Positions 1 through 13,357 of a stretch of 20,194 nt of DNA are shown in pieces. The translations under genes and the position numbers were made by a program. Position 1 is the first letter of the stretch; each line of letters begins with the position of its first letter. The stretch spans positions 1 to 20,194 of the IMG/VR virus record IMGVR_UViG_3300043446_004370; one strand, 5' to 3'. The notes below the pieces were generated by a model. The model saw only the letters and a list, made by a program, of their open reading frames with translations. It was not told the DNA's origin and did not search any database. The DNA is from a virus.

Positions 1-379
1 AGAGGACGTTCTCGATCTCGATGTCCTCGCGCAGGTAGTCGAGCAGGTTGATCAGCGCGGTGTTCTGCACCGGCGTGTAACCCGAGCCGTGAATGCCGAG
101 CAGCTTGTGGTTGTCGCTGCGGACGATGGCGCAGTGCTCGGAGGACTGCAGCGGGCCATCGGGGCCCATGAAGAAGGCGGGGCGCTTGTCGGCAGTCCAG
201 TCGAGGCCGGCGATGGCGAATGCCTCGCAGGCGGAGACGTTCTCGGGGACCATCGTGCCGACGCGGCCAATGAGCGGGTTCACGGCGTAGCCCTTGTCGC
301 GGTAGCGGCCGTGAACCATGGGACCGACACCATCAGAGGCGTAGGCGGTCGTGACGCGGTTGGTGCTGCTGAGAGTCAT
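1..379 (-). CDS. DUF932 phage/plasmid-like protein (C-terminus cut by window edge)
   Basis: The reading frame is open from ATG 379 to the left edge, giving 126 residues and no stop. It shows the N-terminal pattern I know from DUF932 (phage/plasmid-like protein) members: an 'LIGR..TMVPENV' segment near residues 36-50, 'AGLDWT' followed by 'KRPAFF', then 'IVRSDN...LLGIHGSGYTPVQN'. The family is common on phages and plasmids and has no settled biochemical role. An ATG also lies 6 nt upstream (385), but AAGGA sits 8 nt before ATG 379 and only 2 nt before ATG 385, so 379 is preferred. It is the last visible gene of the leftward operon and seems to have its own promoter (480-508) and a 100-nt leader with a perfect 6-bp hairpin at 436-453. 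The family call is fairly sure; function is unknown. Confidence 0.8.
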   Translation of the reverse strand, partial: MTLSSTNRVTTAYASDGVGPMVHGRYRDKGYAVNPLIGRVGTMVPENVSACEAFAIAGLDWTADKRPAFFMGPDGPLQSSEHCAIVRSDNHKLLGIHGSGYTPVQNTALINLLDYLREDIEIENVL

Positions 380-479
380 TTGCATAGTCCTTGTTGAGAA
401 TCGGCAGAGCGCCGGTGTGGATGACGTGCGTTAAGCCGAGGCGCACCCCTCGGGAGGTCGGCTGTGCGGGCCTGGTTGG

Positions 480-508
480 AGCGTAGGGCGGTTGAGCTGG
501 AGGGTCAA
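480..508 (-). promoter_or_regulatory. Candidate promoter for the DUF932 gene
   Basis: On the minus strand TTGACC (503-508) is followed after 17 nt by TACGCT (480-485). The -35 hexamer is part of the recurring motif CTGAATAGGTTGACC and abuts the stop codon of the upstream gene at 510-512. Transcription would start near 473 and leave a leader of about 95 nt before ATG 379. The -10 match is moderate (4 of 6). Confidence 0.4.
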
Positions 509-509
509 C

Positions 510-863
510 CTATTCAGGACAGGACGGCGTCGCGTACAGAACCCGGCGCTTAGCCGGGGCGTTGGGGTAGGGGTCCGGCGTGGGGACGCCGGCGTCCAGC
601 GCGTCGTAGTGGTAGAAAGCGCTGTGCCACTCGCGGTAGGCGGGGACGTCCTCGGGGAAGGGGTAGTCCGCGGCCTCCCAGTCGGACTCGGGTGTGCCGT
701 CGGGGGCGAACCAGCCACCCTCGTCGGCTGTCCAGCCCGCGTCGTGGCGCGCCCAGGCGATGCGCTCGTCTTCGGCCATGGCGGCCTCGACGGCAGGGAG
801 GTGCGTGTACCAGGAGTCGCCAACCTTGGCGGCCATGGCGAGGTTGAAGGAAGGGTCAGTCAT
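510..863 (-). CDS. Hypothetical acidic phage protein
   Basis: A 117-residue protein rich in Trp, Asp, Glu and Pro, with no motif I recognise. The middle reads 'DAGWTADEGGWFAPDGTPESDWEAADYPFPEDVPAY', split here only by turn-like proline and glycine, and the composition is strongly acidic; the C-terminus is basic. There are no membrane segments. ATG 869 is also in frame, but GGAG lies 8 nt before ATG 863 and only 2 nt before 869, so 863 is chosen. Its start overlaps the end of the HNH gene by 8 nt (ATGACTGA), which suggests translational coupling. The function is unknown. The gene is believable because of the ribosome-binding site, the gene-like composition and its exact fit in the operon. Confidence 0.7.
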   Translation of the reverse strand: MTDPSFNLAMAAKVGDSWYTHLPAVEAAMAEDERIAWARHDAGWTADEGGWFAPDGTPESDWEAADYPFPEDVPAYREWHSAFYHYDALDAGVPTPDPYPNAPAKRRVLYATPSCPE

Positions 864-1350
864 CCACATGTCTCCAAATGCGCTTTAGAACGATCTGGCT
901 GATTAGCCCTTGAGTTACCCCGTATTGTTGCGCCAACTTTGGAGTTGATGTGCTGCCAGACGCGTATAAAGCACGTATTTCACGCACTAAACTGTCGCTT
1001 AGTTTAGCTTTGCAATTACGCGTACCTTTGGCGCCTGACTTCTTGCGGCGGCCTCGGATAATCATATCGTGTTGATTATCCAAATGCGTGCCAAGCTCAA
1101 GGTGCAGTGGATTGCAACATTTTGGGTTGTCACACTTGTGCCGAATGACAAGTCCCTCTGGGATTGTTCCGTGAGCGAACATCCAGGCAAGGCGATGTGC
1201 TAAATAATTCCGCTTGTTGGCTCTGACTATGGCGTAACCACCTTTGTGCGAGATGGGACCAGTCCACTCCCAGCACAAGCCCGCAGGACCTGCTTCAACC
1301 CGGCTCCAGAATCGCCACCAGTTTGGTGATGCCGTTAAAAGATCACTCAT
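856..1350 (-). CDS. HNH homing-type endonuclease with C-terminal HTH
   Basis: A 164-residue free-standing HNH endonuclease that would make site-specific cuts in DNA lacking the gene. Residues 50-100 carry the HNH core: 'AHRLAWMFAHG', then His71 in 'RHKCDN', Asn80 and His83 in 'CCNPLHL', and 'GTHLDNQHDM'. Cys73 and Cys78 may bind zinc. Residues 113-160 form a helix-turn-helix-like tail ('VREIRALYASG...LAQQYGVTQGLISQI') that is also found in the HNH gene at 9099-9635. ATG 1350 overlaps the stop of the upstream gene (ATGA), and its own stop overlaps the next start by 8 nt, so it is inserted without breaking the operon. GC is lower than its neighbours (about 50% at 901-960 by hand count), consistent with transfer. 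Confidence 0.88.
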   Translation of the reverse strand: MSDLLTASPNWWRFWSRVEAGPAGLCWEWTGPISHKGGYAIVRANKRNYLAHRLAWMFAHGTIPEGLVIRHKCDNPKCCNPLHLELGTHLDNQHDMIIRGRRKKSGAKGTRNCKAKLSDSLVREIRALYASGSTSTPKLAQQYGVTQGLISQIVLKRIWRHVDD

Positions 1351-4005: not shown

Positions 4006-4037
4006 TGCTGAGAACTCACAGCTTGAGAGGGATGGAG
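4003..4037 (-). repeat. Leader repeat, copy 1
   Basis: The 17-nt sequence CCTCTCAAGCTGTGAGT (4014-4030, minus strand) is identical to 5526-5542. Similarity extends over about 33 nt, from TCCATCC upstream to CAGCAATG at the start codon. It sits immediately before the start of the gene at 3571-4005. A GC-rich hairpin region precedes both copies. Confidence 0.75.
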
Positions 4038-4095
4038 CGCGAAGCGCCCAGGGGCCCGACCTCGGGGGGAGGAACGGGCTCGGGGGTGCATCAGC

Positions 4096-5237: not shown

Positions 5238-5519
5238 TCAAACGAGCTCGCGGAGATGCGAGAAGCCAGGCACTTCGTGAGCCCAGGCAGGAGAGGGCAG
5301 GTTGCGCCGCAGCTCGTTGTAGAGGGACACGGTTATGCCCATGCGTTCGGCAAGGTAGGCGCACTCGCGCCAGATACCAGGCACGCAAAGGTGGCCGGCG
5401 TGACCTTCATCCCATGCGGCCACACGGGCTGGCACAGGGAGTTCCTCATCGACGAGGACGTACAAACGGCGCGGATTCCCGTTGGAATCGTTACTAGCGC
5501 AAAGGTGTTGAAAGTACAT
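5238..5519 (-). CDS. Small phage hypothetical protein (NDSNGNPRR type)
   Basis: A 93-residue protein starting 'MYFQHLCASNDSNGNPRRLYVLVDEE'-like in two blocks. The 'ASNDSNGNPRR-YV--D' opening is frequent among phage accessory proteins, function unknown. The C-terminal half has 'GIWRECAYLAERMGITVSLYNELRR', probably helical. An in-frame ATG at 5567 exists, but ATG 5519 is chosen because the same leader repeat is placed directly before the start at 4005. It is the first gene after the terminator of the putative non-coding RNA, so it may depend on read-through or on the leader repeat as its own control element. Confidence 0.72.
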   Translation of the reverse strand: MYFQHLCASNDSNGNPRRLYVLVDEELPVPARVAAWDEGHAGHLCVPGIWRECAYLAERMGITVSLYNELRRNLPSPAWAHEVPGFSHLRELV

Positions 5520-5548
5520 GCTGATACTCACAGCTTGAGAGGATGGAG
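5517..5548 (-). repeat. Leader repeat, copy 2
   Basis: Second copy of the element at 4003-4037: CCTCTCAAGCTGTGAGT at 5526-5542 (minus strand), with matching flanks TCCATCC and CAGCATG. Just upstream on the minus strand is a perfect 6-bp hairpin with a four-base loop (5546-5561). Confidence 0.75.
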
Positions 5549-5565
5549 GTGAAAACACCTCAGCC

Positions 5566-5596
5566 AAAAGACCCCCGGACGCAGCGCGCCAGGGGG
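5566..5596 (-). terminator. Rho-independent terminator at the 3' end of the putative ncRNA
   Basis: On the minus strand CCCCC-T-GG (5596-5589) pairs with CC-GGGGG (5578-5572), with one bulged T and a 10-nt loop, followed by TCTTTT (5571-5566). This is a classical hairpin plus U-run, reading leftward. Confidence 0.6.
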
Positions 5597-6640
5597 AACT
5601 TCTGGGGGAGATGGTTTGTGCGTGATAGGCAGAGCCGAATGCCCATTGCCACGGTCAACACGCGGTGACCGTATGTGCAGAGCCGGGGTAAGCCGGGTTG
5701 CGTATTCCCATAGGTACAGCAAGACAGTCGCGCCCCGGTTCGCCAGGGTTGCGCTGTCAGCTTCACTGCCTGCCCACTAGACAGCTACTAGCTTCGAAGG
5801 GCTCAGAGCCCGCGCCTGCTAGTGCTCACCTAGGCCCGATGGCTCGGGCTTGGGCTCGGCATCATGCCGCTGCACCTATTCCCCCATACCATCCGGGTCG
5901 GTTAGGGCTGAACACCTATCCCTAGGTGCCCTCCTCTGAGAGGCCCGCACAAGGCGGGTCAGCTTGTCCCTCCGGCGAAGCCAGGATTCAGACGATACGT
6001 AGGCCAGACCGCAGGCAAATCGCCGCCCCTGGTACAGACCCCGGCCCTTACGGGCTCATTGTCCGATACGTCTTCCCTCCAAGCTGGGCAGGCTCACCCG
6101 ATCACGGGCTCGACACTGCGCTCGGCACGGTTGTTGTTCGTAGCAAGATCAGAGCATTACATAGGCAGTTCACGAATAGGACGCGCCGCCGGAGCGGCTG
6201 GCCCGACCCTTCCGGATCGGTGCACCTAACCTAGCACCACTGCCGCGGGATCCGTCAAGCGGACCGGCAACAGAATCGCGAAACCCGCACAAGGTGGGAA
6301 GCGCGATCGGCAGACGGGCGCAGCAAAGCTGCGGGGCCCCATCGGCCAGGGTGTTCGGTTGTCTAGGTGCGGGTGGGCATAGGATGCCCTTGGCGGACCG
6401 CGAGCGGTCCGGGACGCGATCCGCGGCTGGCCACGCTGGCCACCGGTCCCGATCGCTCCGCCAATGTAGCCGACCGTCCGGCCGTCCGGTCAAACTCGCT
6501 TAACATCCAGTCATCTCGGTTGAGACGCAAGGCGAGACTTTTACGCGCGCGAAGGCAAATAGAAGTCGCACCGAGACTCATGAGACTAGGCCCGGGACGG
6601 GCCCCGAAGGGCTGAGGACACCTCCACAGATACAGAAAAA
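5597..6640 (-). ncRNA. Candidate large structured non-coding RNA (about 1 kb)
   Basis: The stretch has no convincing gene: all frames are short, overlapping and of noise-like composition. Hairpins are dense: 5651-5672 (7 bp), 5723-5758 (nested), 5799-5811, 5834-5849, 5913-5928, 5944-5958, 6044-6055, 6203-6220, 6284-6298, 6320-6332, 6375-6389, 6395-6410 and 6601-6612. Read on the minus strand, four loops are canonical RNA tetraloops: GGGA (5919-5922), GUAA (6048-6051), GGAA (6210-6213) and C(UUCG)G (6605-6608). On the plus strand none of the three GNRA loops is GNRA, so the RNA should run leftward. It ends in a terminator at 5566-5596 and starts below an AT-rich, promoter-like patch (6630-6670). 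Giant phage RNAs such as GOLLD or ROOL are known, but membership is not shown. I saw no tRNA. A replication origin is the main alternative. Confidence 0.5.
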
Positions 6641-7061: not shown

Positions 7062-7082
7062 GGTCAACCTAGCACAGGCGCC
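7062..7082 (-). promoter_or_regulatory. Recurring TAGGTTGACC motif upstream of the HTH-RHH gene
   Basis: The minus strand reads GCCTGTGCTAGGTTGACC, with TTGACC at 7062-7067, 20 nt upstream of the TTG start at 7041. It matches other copies at 503-515, 2816-2830 and 13352-13367. No good -10 is found at the normal distance, so it may be an operator rather than a -35 box. Confidence 0.3.
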
Positions 7083-7092
7083 GATGGCTCTG

Positions 7093-7287
7093 TCAACCCC
7101 CATCGTCGCTCGCGCTCGGGCCGTGGTACAGGGCTTCCAGCTGGCTGACGAAGTCGACCTCGGTGCCTTCGTAGGGCTCGTAAACCTCCTGCTCCACGAT
7201 GATCCGGGAAATCCGAGGGCTGCGCACCAGCCAGCGCAACAGGCAATGCTCGTACCAGCGCAGGGGCATCAGGGGTTCGCTGCTCAT
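7093..7287 (-). CDS. Small hypothetical protein coupled to the sigma factor
   Basis: A 64-residue protein, 'MSSEPLMPLRWYEHCLLRWLVRSPRISRIIVEQEVY' in outline, then an acidic stretch 'EPYEGTEVDFVSQLEALYHG' and a short disordered tail. Its ATG overlaps the stop of the sigma gene (ATGA at 7284-7287), so the two are probably translated together. A basic helical half and an acidic helical half would suit a protein partner of the sigma factor, such as an anti-sigma or co-activator, but nothing in the sequence proves it. No family recognised. Confidence 0.65.
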   Translation of the reverse strand: MSSEPLMPLRWYEHCLLRWLVRSPRISRIIVEQEVYEPYEGTEVDFVSQLEALYHGPSASDDGG

Positions 7288-8156
7288 GGCGTGTGCCCCT
7301 GCATCCGCAGGAGAAAGCGCAAGCGATTCAACGCTGTGCGCTGCACCTGACCGGCCCGAGAGCGGGAGAATCCCAGCTCTTCAGCGATCTCGCGCAGCGT
7401 GCGGTTCTCAAAGAACACGCCGTGAAGGATCTGGGCTTCGACCTCGGGGAGGCGCTTGAGGGCGGCGGTCACCACCTCGCGGGTGTCGTCTTGGCGTAGG
7501 GCTTCCTCAGGGGACCCGGTTGTCAGCGTGGTATCCGCCGCGATCAGCTCCAGCAGGGCGTTGCCGTCCTCGGTGCAGAGAGTGTCGAGGCTGCGGCAGG
7601 CCGTGGCGGCCTGTAGGTCGAGCATGGCACTGATGCGCTCCGGGGTGGTGGCGCAGTGGTCGGCGATCTCGGTGAAGGATGGTGGGCACCCGTTCACCGC
7701 GGTGTACTCCGAGGTGAAGCGCTGGGCGCGGGCCAGGATCTCGTGCGTGTTGATCGGTAGCCGGATCAGGCGGGCATAGCTGTGGATGGCGCGGGTGATC
7801 GCCTGGCGGATCCACCAATAACTATAGGTTGAGAGGGCGTAACCCCTTGTAGGATCAAAAAGCTCTAAGCCTCGTATTAGACCCATATTGCCTTCTTGAA
7901 TCAAATCGTTTAGGTCTAATCCACGATTTTGATAGCGCTTGGCAATGCTGACAACTAAGCGTAAATTCGTCTGCACCATGATTGTCATTGAGCGCTGGCC
8001 ACGCTTGCGCACTGGCTGGGGTGCGTGAGACCGGCCATCCGGCCAGTGCACCCACTCGTGGATCCTTATGCAATGACGAAGCTGAGCTTCTTTTGTAAGG
8101 ACTGGGTATCTACCTATATCGGTGAGATAGTCCTTAATGCTTATGCTACTTATCAT
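7284..8156 (-). CDS. Phage-encoded sigma-70 family RNA polymerase sigma factor
   Basis: A 290-residue sigma factor that would direct host RNA polymerase to phage promoters. Region 1.2 lies at about 6-35 ('IKDYLTDIGRYPVLT'), region 2 at 62-135 ('NLRLVVSIAKRYQNRGLDL', 'DLIQEGNMGLIRG', 'FDPTRGYALSTYSYWWIRQA'), region 3 at 140-200 and region 4 at 228-284. In region 2.3-2.4, Trp114, Trp115, Gln118 and Thr121 are kept, so -10 recognition should be normal. In the 4.2 recognition helix the usual 'RERVRQIE' is 'RSRAGQVQ' (265-272): positions matching E. coli Glu585 and Arg588 are Ser266 and Gly269. GAGG lies 6 to 7 nt before ATG 8156, which overlaps the HNH stop by 11 nt. The 5' third is much lower in GC than the rest. 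Confidence 0.93.
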   Translation of the reverse strand: MISSISIKDYLTDIGRYPVLTKEAQLRHCIRIHEWVHWPDGRSHAPQPVRKRGQRSMTIMVQTNLRLVVSIAKRYQNRGLDLNDLIQEGNMGLIRGLELFDPTRGYALSTYSYWWIRQAITRAIHSYARLIRLPINTHEILARAQRFTSEYTAVNGCPPSFTEIADHCATTPERISAMLDLQAATACRSLDTLCTEDGNALLELIAADTTLTTGSPEEALRQDDTREVVTAALKRLPEVEAQILHGVFFENRTLREIAEELGFSRSRAGQVQRTALNRLRFLLRMQGHTP

Positions 8157-8709
8157 TTGACACCTCGGGGGCTGGTGCGTCCGAAACGCCGAGGACGCTG
8201 TTGCGATGGGCTATCGCCGCGCAGTGCGCCTCGTAGTCAGAGGAAAAGTACCCAGCAAACATGTACGTACCTTGATTCGGCATTCTCCACTTAGCCATCC
8301 ATTTGTCCTTGTACTTTGTGGCGTATCTATACGGGGACTTTCCTTGCACCCCTTTGTTCATGCAATTTTCGCTTCTTGAGGTCCATCGAAGGTTTTCGAT
8401 GGCGTTATTGCTTTTGTTCCTGTCGACGTGGTCGGCCTCGGTGTCTGTAGGGCCTGGCCATTTGTCGTGGAGTAGCAAGACTATATGGTGGCATCTATAG
8501 CGGTGACCTTGAAGCACTACTTCCCAGTAGCCTAAATTGCTAATTGTGCCTGCAACAGTTCCGACCTTTACGCAATAAGCCGTTGATTCTTTCCATAGAA
8601 GTCCACTAGGACTCCCGGGGTCGTATTGGAAGAAGTGTTCGAGAATTGCTACGTGGATGCGGGAGAGCCTTTTGCGTAGCTGTCCCGCCCTGGTCTGTGG
8701 GTTCACCAT
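8146..8709 (-). CDS. HNH endonuclease with C-terminal AP2-like domain
   Basis: A 187-residue free-standing homing-type endonuclease. The HNH core is at about residues 88-145: 'RYRCHHIVLLLHDKWPGP', 'EADHVDRNKSNNAIENLRW' with the His and Asn typical of the fold, then 'TSRSENCMNKG'. The C-terminus ('SPYRYATKYKDKWMAKWRM', 'GYFSSDYEAHCAAIAHRNSV') matches the AP2-like DNA-binding module that often follows HNH domains in phage nucleases. The frame is open upstream to 9003, but that part is antisense-like noise; ATG 8709 starts where the composition changes. It ends 11 nt inside the sigma factor gene. GC is low. The target could be the adjacent sigma gene, as homing genes often sit next to their cut site. 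Confidence 0.88.
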   Translation of the reverse strand: MVNPQTRAGQLRKRLSRIHVAILEHFFQYDPGSPSGLLWKESTAYCVKVGTVAGTISNLGYWEVVLQGHRYRCHHIVLLLHDKWPGPTDTEADHVDRNKSNNAIENLRWTSRSENCMNKGVQGKSPYRYATKYKDKWMAKWRMPNQGTYMFAGYFSSDYEAHCAAIAHRNSVLGVSDAPAPEVSNDK

Positions 8710-9098: not shown

Positions 9099-9635
9099 TT
9101 ATGTGAGCCATGCCCACGACTTTCGATTGCGGATTTCACTCACTGTCGGCTGGCTAATTTGATACTGAGCTGCAACCACTGCTAGCGGGGCTGAAGACGC
9201 CCGTATTTCTCGGACTATTTCTTCGTCCAGTCTGCACTGTGGATTGCGTGTCCCGCGTAAGTGAGTGCCGTGTCTAACTTTGTCAGCGTGATTGGAGCTG
9301 CGAGTGCCCCATCTAAGATTTGAAGCGTGGTTGTCTGTTCGAACTCCATTGATATGACAGACTTCTTCCCCATCGGCCTGTTCTCTTAAGAATGCTAAAG
9401 CAACTAGGCGATGCACTAGTACTAGTTTCGGACGCCTTCCGGGACGCGATAGGCCCACAAAAAGGTAGCCATTAGAGCATTTGTTTAGCTTGAGCTCTTT
9501 GCCCTTAAAGCACCGTTTTTGCAACCCCCAGCGACTCAGCTGCACGACAGACCGGTCAACAGAACGAACTCTGCCATCTTTTGATACTTGATACATTCCC
9601 TCCCAGCCAGGAATGTCTCTCCACTCGTAGGTCAC
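9099..9635 (-). CDS. HNH endonuclease with NUMOD4 motif
   Basis: A 178-residue homing-type endonuclease. Residues 1-30 ('YEWRDIPGWEGMYQVSKDGR' then 'VRSVDR') are a NUMOD4 motif, a DNA-binding element of phage homing nucleases. The HNH core follows ('LVHRLVALAFL', 'EEVCHINGVRTDNHASNLRW'), then 'GTRSSNHADKVRHG', and a C-terminal HTH-like segment ('EEIVREIRASSAPLAVVAAQ' then 'YQISQPTVSEI') that resembles the tail of the HNH gene at 856-1350. It begins with GTG 9635 overlapping the ThyX stop (GTGA). AGGGAGG lies 8 nt upstream, inside thyX. Long open frames upstream are out-of-frame ThyX. GC is lower than in ThyX. Confidence 0.9.
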   Translation of the reverse strand: MTYEWRDIPGWEGMYQVSKDGRVRSVDRSVVQLSRWGLQKRCFKGKELKLNKCSNGYLFVGLSRPGRRPKLVLVHRLVALAFLREQADGEEVCHINGVRTDNHASNLRWGTRSSNHADKVRHGTHLRGTRNPQCRLDEEIVREIRASSAPLAVVAAQYQISQPTVSEIRNRKSWAWLT

Positions 9636-10351
9636 GGAGCGAGCCTCCCTTTTAGAAGCCTGTTCTTTTCGTACCAGCTGGAGACTTCTGGTGCCCAAGA
9701 CTTGAAGTGGGGCCACATCAACTCGCACAACTTCTGAATTTCGAGCTGCGCATCTCTTTTGAAACGCAAATCCATGAAGTGCATCAGCGCTCGGAGCGAG
9801 AAGCTCACCACGAAGTGCTGTCGGATCGCATAGGGGATGAGATCCCTGGCGTGCTCCTCGGCGAAGCCACGGTCGATCGCGGCCTTGTAGCGGACTGCGG
9901 CGTCCAGGCACTGCGTGTAGTCCACGAAGCGCAGGTCTTCCGTGTACTCGTAGGCGTGGCCTTGGCGATCTCGGTACTTGCCGATGGGGCGGAGGTAGAA
10001 GACCTCCTCGATCTCGCGGGCGCCGGTAGCTGCAGCGCAGATGCGCTGGCCGGTGTACCGGCCGGACTGCACGTCGAAACTCACGCCCACGCGATGGGTG
10101 CGGGCCTGCTGCATCACTGAGTGAGGGAACCAGCCGCAGGCGAACGTGATCGACGGATGTTCCAGCGGTCCGTAGTGGCCGCGCTCGCCGGCAAGGAGGT
10201 GCTTCACCACGAGGGCGCCGGCCTCGGGTTCGCTCGGCGGGTGCTCGGTGAAGACGAACTCCTCGCTGTAGTCCTGGTGCATCGCCCACCAGCACAGGGT
10301 CTGCGGATGCTCGGTGCGGTTCAGCACCTCGACGCGGAAGTAGGGGTCCAT
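9632..10351 (-). CDS. thyX: FAD-dependent thymidylate synthase
   Basis: A 239-residue ThyX, which makes dTMP from dUMP using methylene-tetrahydrofolate, NADPH and FAD. This would feed phage DNA synthesis. The signature is 'RTHRVGVSFDVQSGRYTG' at residues 84-101, and the conserved C-terminal substrate-binding segment is 'SFSLRALMHFMDLRFKRDAQ' (184-202, with Arg187, His191 and Arg196). 'GERGHYGPLEHPSITF' at 55-70 fits the family. The opening 'MDPYFRVEVL...HQDYSEEFV' and the 'THRVGVSFDVQS' form of the signature match the subtype I associate with cyanobacteria and cyanophages. ATG 10351 overlaps the previous stop in TGATG. The frame is open upstream, but that is non-coding shadow. The stop overlaps the GTG of the HNH gene. 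Confidence 0.95.
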   Translation of the reverse strand: MDPYFRVEVLNRTEHPQTLCWWAMHQDYSEEFVFTEHPPSEPEAGALVVKHLLAGERGHYGPLEHPSITFACGWFPHSVMQQARTHRVGVSFDVQSGRYTGQRICAAATGAREIEEVFYLRPIGKYRDRQGHAYEYTEDLRFVDYTQCLDAAVRYKAAIDRGFAEEHARDLIPYAIRQHFVVSFSLRALMHFMDLRFKRDAQLEIQKLCELMWPHFKSWAPEVSSWYEKNRLLKGRLAP

Positions 10352-13328: not shown

Positions 13329-13357
13329 ACCCTAGTCCGGACGGACGGGGACGTCAA
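13329..13357 (-). promoter_or_regulatory. Candidate promoter of the RHH-SSB operon
   Basis: The minus strand reads CCGGATTTGGTTGACG, with TTGACG at 13352-13357, a 17-nt spacer and TAGGGT at 13329-13334. Transcription would start near 13322, just before TTG 13307. It shares the GATTTGGTTGAC core with the copies at 2816-2830 and, in part, 14687-14705. Confidence 0.45.

Follow-up and report, generated by a model that had tools for sequence, protein, structure and literature searches.

Genomic context of the phage sigma factor

The sequence studied is the 20,194-base virus record IMGVR_UViG_3300043446_004370, analysed here over its whole length and referred to as the window. A gene on its minus strand (7284..8156) encodes a sigma-70 family factor of 290 amino acids and lies near the end of a minus-strand operon that runs from an SSB-like gene through HTH, exonuclease, dNMP kinase, ThyX and HNH genes to sigma, with a Prim-Pol primase and a family A DNA polymerase on the divergent strand. 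Two HNH endonuclease genes separate ThyX from sigma (9099-9641 and 8146-8697, both minus strand), the end of the latter overlapping the sigma start, and a third is located at 856-1350 (minus strand). The host is likely a cyanobacterium, as judged from the nearest cellular relatives of the sigma factor, which are cyanobacterial in 80/80 cases (best 80 listed), and from the DNA polymerase, whose two best phage matches are Pseudanabaena phages. The photosynthesis gene psbA was set aside as proof of host, being absent in 27/27 related records, many of them fragments.

The protein matches the Pfam models Sigma70_r2 and Sigma70_r4 at 76.5 and 49.8 bits, above the respective cut-offs of 24 and 24.1, with sigma regions 3 and 1.2 slightly below theirs (24.1 vs 25.3 and 19.9 vs 22). 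The profile of PHROG 351, a family of phage sigma factors, covers residues 53-283 (E = 1.5e-60, 206.8 bits), the closest solved chains are RpoS and SigA, and a Foldseek search with a predicted model (pLDDT 74.7, pTM 0.47, with an unreliable domain arrangement, TM about 0.4) returned sigma chains in initiation complexes at E of about 1e-12. Together, the two Pfam regions, PHROG 351, the solved-chain alignment and the fold match bear out the proposal of an earlier note on this DNA that the gene encodes a phage sigma factor: by homology it is a member of the sigma-70 family, with a predicted role in core RNA polymerase binding and initiation. Its scores lie below the curated cut-offs both for the cyanobacterial RpoD/SigA family TIGR02997 (221.6 vs 384.5 bits) and, for the whole protein, the FliA/WhiG group 3 family TIGR02479 (90.9 vs 189.6 bits).

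Residues of regions 2.4 and 4.2

Region 2.3-2.4 (residues 105-125; 7782..7844, minus strand) reads S109 T110 Y111 S112 Y113 W114 W115 I116 R117 Q118 A119 I120 T121 and keeps W114, W115, Q118 and T121. The part of the region 4.2 recognition helix defined by alignment (residues 262-275; 7332..7373, minus strand), which in the predicted model belongs to a helix spanning 265-285, reads S264 R265 S266 R267 A268 G269 Q270. Alignment to solved E. coli RpoS (ELGFSRSRAGQVQ vs EIGLTRERVRQIQ) places S266 (codon 7359..7361, minus strand) opposite a glutamate and G269 (codon 7350..7352, minus strand) opposite an arginine, which we take to be E585 and R588 in sigma-70 numbering. All six residues singled out by the earlier note (W114, W115, Q118, T121, S266 and G269) are present in the translation of 8156-7284. 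The interval to which it assigned them, 7359-7398, holds the Ser266 codon (it spans residues 254-266, plus one base of 253) and leaves the Gly269 codon just outside, by 9 bases.

E585 and R588 are both named for sigma-70 in a published account, according to which R584 touches base -31, E585 touches the template base at -33, the substitutions E585Q and R588H relax -33, and no direct contact by R588 is seen in the structure (PMC2613000). The same source reports that E. coli extended -10 promoters can do without region 4.2, and a further one lists R584, E585, R586, R588 and Q589 among the residues tied to the -35 box (PMC4943231). The window sigma retains the equivalents of R584, R586 and Q589 and lacks the E585/R588 equivalents of the cyanobacterial RpoD/SigA subfamily, having S266 and G269 instead. 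The direct prediction from these residues would be a relaxed reading at -33, with no new hexamer.

The extent of the replacement was assessed in 208 aligned rows, comprising the best 80 cellular relatives listed and 128 viral relatives. W114, W115 and Q118 are invariant in 208/208 rows, in keeping with the claim of a usual -10 reader, and T121 is variable (T in 61 and S in 45 of the 128 viral rows; T in 73 of the best 80 cellular rows listed). Position 269 is arginine in 80/80 of the cellular rows (best 80 listed); among the 128 viral rows it is R in 44, S in 42, G in 20, K in 8, H in 6, Q in 3, Y in 1 and a gap in 4. At 266, 77/80 cellular (best 80 listed) and 47/128 viral relatives carry E or D. 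The -35 recognition residues are thus replaced as claimed, and alignment with cyanobacterial group 1 and 2 sigma factors indicates that the replacement is not common to host relatives (best 80 listed), so the observation that the earlier note had named as counting against it, the same residues in host factors, was not made there. More divergent host sigma factors were covered in part, in 20 regions (without L309, part of L310, L315, L316 and L317). Group 3-like rows among those read carry Q, N, S, H, K or T at 588, most group 1/2-like rows carry R, the L308/L313 type has R in a DTAR context, and the S/G pair was found in none of the factors read from this subset.

Region 4 as a whole (residues 226-284; 7305..7481, minus strand) scores best, when scanned alone, against WhiG (40.0 bits), FliA_WhiG (39.4) and RpoS (38.9), ahead of cyanobacterial RpoD (29.5), the FliA/WhiG model leading RpoS by less than 2 bits. 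Across region 4 of 19 clade members, FliA_WhiG matches 19/19, cyanobacterial RpoD 14/19 and the RpoD C-terminal model 9/19. Residues 1-147 match cyanobacterial RpoD at 163 bits, far above any group 3 model. The protein therefore looks like group 2 in its head, followed by a region 4 with a drift in the group 3 direction; a domain swap as the origin of region 4 is not claimed, because the scores are too close. With E585/R588 tied to base -33 and region 4 matching FliA/WhiG best, a changed reading is plausible.

Conservation and probable recurrence of the altered helix

Within subclade A (14 sequences including the window), R265, R267 and Q270 are invariant (14/14 each), S266 occurs in 12/14 (C in 2), G269 in 12/14 (S in 2), and position 268 varies. 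Its sister, subclade B (19 sequences), has R at 265 in all 19, H in 10, Y in 7, S in 1 and Q in 1 at 266, mixed residues at 267, variation at 268, S in 16 and K in 3 at 269, and T, S, A or V at 270; the loop between regions 4.1 and 4.2 is shortened in both subclades alike. Mean entropy of the recognition helix in subclade A is 0.79 bits, vs 1.23 and 1.38 bits for regions 3 and 4.1. Since the new helix is near-invariant there, it seems to be selected rather than decaying.

A tree built without region 4 (regions 1.2-3.2) places A and B within a clade of 26 phage sigma factors with 98% support, and the R588 arginine is missing in 26/26 of them; cut or partial rows (L006, L044, L045, L075, L079, L170, L172) were excluded, as were rows of high identity (>=90% for viral, >=85% for cellular ones). 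The helix change is, by these alignments, fixed and conserved in phages and not common to the nearest host factors (best 80 listed). Another phage group (L183-L187, L195) shares the S and G, its helix reading TRSRVGQ or SRSAVGQ, and a single clade uniting L183/L184/L185/L186/L195 with the window clade was rejected in a post hoc AU test on 39 rows selected after inspection of the tree (p-AU 0.0163). The S/G pair was thus apparently reached independently in a second phage lineage, and the helix change is probably recurrent in phages; such an apparent repeat in two lineages argues for an adaptive change. As a separate observation, the window sigma and L002:4808-5674 are identical over residues 187-290, their differences being confined to the first two thirds, as if the shared part had been recently exchanged.

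Promoter-like sites around the sigma gene

Promoters were surveyed in stretches of 15 related records, with 28 sequences (including the window and single loci) used for gene calling, by counting TTGAC-17..19-TANNNT in regions upstream of genes. The motif occurs in subclade A in 11/85 regions before sigma (shuffled 0.1), 10/170 after it (0.7) and 0/34 on the divergent strand, and in clade B in 12/76 before (0.6), 1/119 after (0.5) and 0/42 on the divergent strand; these counts rest on a home-made gene caller and on non-independent regions of related records, the TTGAC sites in each set being carried by 3 to 4 orthologous families. In the window, a promoter-like TTGACG-N17-TAGGGT lies ahead of the sigma operon (13329..13357, minus strand), and 11 clade A records show TTGAC-N17-TAGGNT at 4.1-5.6 kb before sigma. 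Immediately after the sigma gene comes TTGACA-N19-TAGGTT with a TGC extended -10 (7066..7096, minus strand), conserved in close relatives; a second copy (74% identical, 31 nt) precedes the non-coding RNA unit described below (6228..6258, minus strand). Farther downstream, TTGACC-N17-TACGCT (480..508, minus strand) is conserved in clade A as TTGACC or TTGAGC-N17-TA(C/G)NNT.

The sites nearest the sigma gene have a distinctive form. Four close records (G000, G001, G002, G163), the only ones with this N19/TGC class, carry TTGAC(A/G)-N19-TAGG(T/C)T after GTGC at +82 to +212 and again at +896 to +1050 behind sigma, and at the first of these sites the spacers have diverged with both elements kept. 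Other clade records keep TTGAC(A/G) behind sigma, with GTGC 13 bases further on. Promoters nearest the sigma gene thus retain the -35 element and gain an extended -10. The G at -33 is kept in nearly all conserved phage promoter sites, so any relaxation at -33 has left no visible trace.

Searches for a different -35 element were made in the upstream regions of the related records, and neither dyad counts, directed 5-mer counts nor TTGNNN/TTGCGY counts gave a consistent non-TTGAC motif; a two-block expectation-maximisation search on one of four sets gave mostly weak motifs. The enriched -35 in subclade A is TTGAC, with no common alternative as a sign of new specificity. A TTGCG(C/T)-N17-TA lead in clade B was dropped because it came from a single orthologous region, and some apparently conserved upstream regions (comps 2, 4, 14, 17) were set aside because they read like coding DNA missed by the gene caller. 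The earlier note had expected phage promoters to depart from the host consensus, an expectation at odds with subclade A, where TTGAC-N17/18-TANNNT is enriched before and after sigma and the promoters are largely host-like. Its claim of an altered -35 reader accordingly stands for the residues, which are replaced and kept as a clade feature, but not for a changed -35 sequence. The loss of canonical promoters after sigma in clade B fits its idea, and would be explained equally well by read-through. The TTGAC promoters behind sigma may also belong to the host sigma, in which case the targets of the phage sigma would be unseen.

A lead to another -35, TTGTCC-N16/18-TANNNT, has 9 matches on the divergent strand of clade A. 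Clade B records (G006, G010, G005, G007, G008 and others) have a divergent early promoter region in which TTGACA-N17-TANNNT is accompanied by a palindrome like TGAGTCTCAATAGACTCA, as for a putative repressor or activator site. One promoter-like site occurs twice in the G013 contig, at 432-460 and 70424-70452; its placement close to either end of this 70 kb record would fit a genome that is circular or terminally redundant.

A large non-coding RNA unit behind sigma

Directly downstream of the sigma gene lies a large non-coding unit of about 0.65 kb (5566-6258, minus strand), which starts at the second promoter-like site and closes in a terminator-like hairpin with TCTTTT after it. Relatives of the unit occur in twelve loci (L002, L003, L016, L042, L163, L164, L169, L173, L037, L260, L280, L289); other clade members have different non-coding sequence at the same place. 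Conservation of the unit far exceeds that of the proteins: across 871 nt of the RNA region window and G002 share 95% identity, with sigma proteins at 76%, and window and G006 are 87.6% identical over 644 nt with sigma at 47%. In a 9-sequence alignment, both partners change in 19/198 predicted pairs (6.0 after shuffling, no more than 3 in slid versions), and in a model-fitted alignment of a 175-position domain 30/62 pairs covary (shuffled 7.5, slid at most 6); the model of this domain strongly matches 13/72 sources (>=92 bits). The downstream terminator core is present in 40/46 clade loci with enough sequence and in 0/145 other loci. Single-sequence folding is unremarkable (z -1.78).

Rfam holds no credible match: the window gives no hit with E of 1 or below, and the region gives four, all at E >=3.2. 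The unit has 0 matches in 50,697 phage records and, in 388 cyanobacterial genomes, two short chance-like matches only; a CRISPR link of these two was rejected, there being no repeat array around them. From its conservation and covariation, the unit probably represents a large structured RNA that is new and belongs to these phages. In size it resembles GOLLD and ROOL, two large RNAs of phages whose function is unknown (PMC12286853), but their sequences do not match it.

Structured leaders also occur nearby. A near-invariant leader, GGCTGAGGTGCTTTGCACC...CTCAAGCTGTGAGTTCAGC-ATG, is present behind the terminator in many clade loci (about 5490-5600 and about 4006-4070 in the window, both minus strand) and comprises a hairpin followed by a GCUG..CAGC stem touching the start codon; variant copies stand ahead of other genes with the stems retained in different bases. 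Ahead of ORF 2-385 (about 380-450, minus strand) is the hairpin CCGAGG-GGTGCG-CCTCGG, the loop of which could pair with a downstream CGCAC. Its clade B counterpart is CGGAGG-GCTGCG-CCTCCG with CGCAGC, as in a putative pseudoknot kept by compensating changes.

Proposed mechanism and alternatives

The reading we favour, and hold with about even confidence, is that of a group-2-derived phage sigma with host-type -10 reading and a weaker or relaxed -35 reading, above all at -33, offset by an extended -10 and by spacing. It builds on the residue sequence, its conservation and phylogeny, the host-type promoter ahead of the operon, and the TTGAC(A/G) plus TGC promoters behind sigma in close relatives. 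A host-type promoter would drive an early operon in which the phage sigma is transcribed late, and the sigma would then steer host RNA polymerase to phage promoters. Region 2 would keep the host's way of reading the -10. Region 4.2 would present a conserved, lineage-specific helix with R584, R586 and Q589 kept and the -33-linked E585/R588 pair lost, most likely leaving -35 reading weaker or relaxed, chiefly at -33, and this loss would be made good by other contacts such as the extended -10 (TGC) and spacing, without a wholly new hexamer.

If the new helix instead read a different -35 hexamer, polymerase would leave host promoters for phage late genes. Both specificity residues are replaced, region 4 has moved closer to the group 3 sigma factors, known to recognise different -35 sequences, and canonical promoters in clade B fall from 12/76 regions before sigma to 1/119 behind it; the enrichment of TTGAC behind sigma in the window's own subclade (10/170, shuffled 0.7) and unbiased searches that gave no other -35 motif beyond one orthologous clade B region of TTGCG(C/T)-N17-TA make this unlikely. 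We regard it as quite improbable that region 4 no longer reads sequence at all, with the -35 contact coming from an activator or anti-sigma of the phage at region 4 in a T4 middle-like manner, or with extended -10 promoters needing no -35. The TGC directly behind the sigma gene and the dispensability of region 4.2 at such promoters in E. coli (PMC2613000) would suit it, but conservation of the helix exceeds that of regions 3 and 4.1, TTGAC is retained at those same extended -10 promoters, and no activator was identified in the analysis. Neutral change in an otherwise ordinary, host-like sigma of group 2, with the same promoter choice as the host's, would account for the TTGAC of the conserved promoters and for the retention of R584, R586 and Q589; it sits poorly with an R588 found in 80/80 cellular relatives (best 80 listed) and lost in 26/26 of the phage clade, and with a replacement that is fixed and has apparently arisen twice, and we give it little credence.

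A bolder reading, and a doubtful one, joins the sigma and the structured RNA into one takeover cassette. A host-type promoter would make the sigma, the rebuilt region 4 together with a TGC extended -10 would read TTGAC(A/G)-N17/19-TGC promoters sited directly behind the sigma gene, a main product would be a large, structured RNA belonging to an undescribed family, and the helix change would have evolved at least twice in phages, to favour such promoters over host ones. The clade provides a natural series at the 585-588 pair (E-R, S-G, H-S, Y-S) against an unchanging region 2, and bears on how a phage sigma derived from a housekeeping-type host factor may set its own promoters apart from the host's. 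Of the two finds, the RNA unit next to sigma may prove the greater surprise.

Relation to known sigma factors

Literature searches, mostly judged from titles, turned up no paper on this helix change. SPO1 gp28 and T4 gp55 are phage sigma factors of other design and of separate lineages that redirect host polymerase, T4 gp55 having no known region 4; they resemble the window sigma in described function. Group 3 sigma factors (FliA/WhiG, SigB/F/G), which are not known to have an arginine at the 588 position, are like the window sigma in region 4 and unlike it in region 2, which is clearly group 2. The cyanobacterial group 1/2 factors (TIGR02997) show the reverse, being close to it in region 2 and keeping the R588 that it lacks (80/80 of the nearest, best 80 listed).

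The nearest parallels are phage-borne. Cyanophage group 2-like sigma factors are already known (PMC3751600, PMC6157547), and the window sigma is, by homology, a variant of these marked by the helix change. Its best matches among 50,697 phage records are cyanosiphovirus sigma factors, those of Synechococcus phages S-CBS1, S-CBS3 and KBS-S-2A/KBS2A, at 36-37% identity (known phages at most 37.6%); annotated as RpoD or group 2, these are likewise phage-borne, group 2-like and full length. The two types differ in region 4.2, where S-CBS1-type rows (L061, L066) retain SRERIRQ and a GLNG loop, whereas S/G and a shorter loop mark the window clade.
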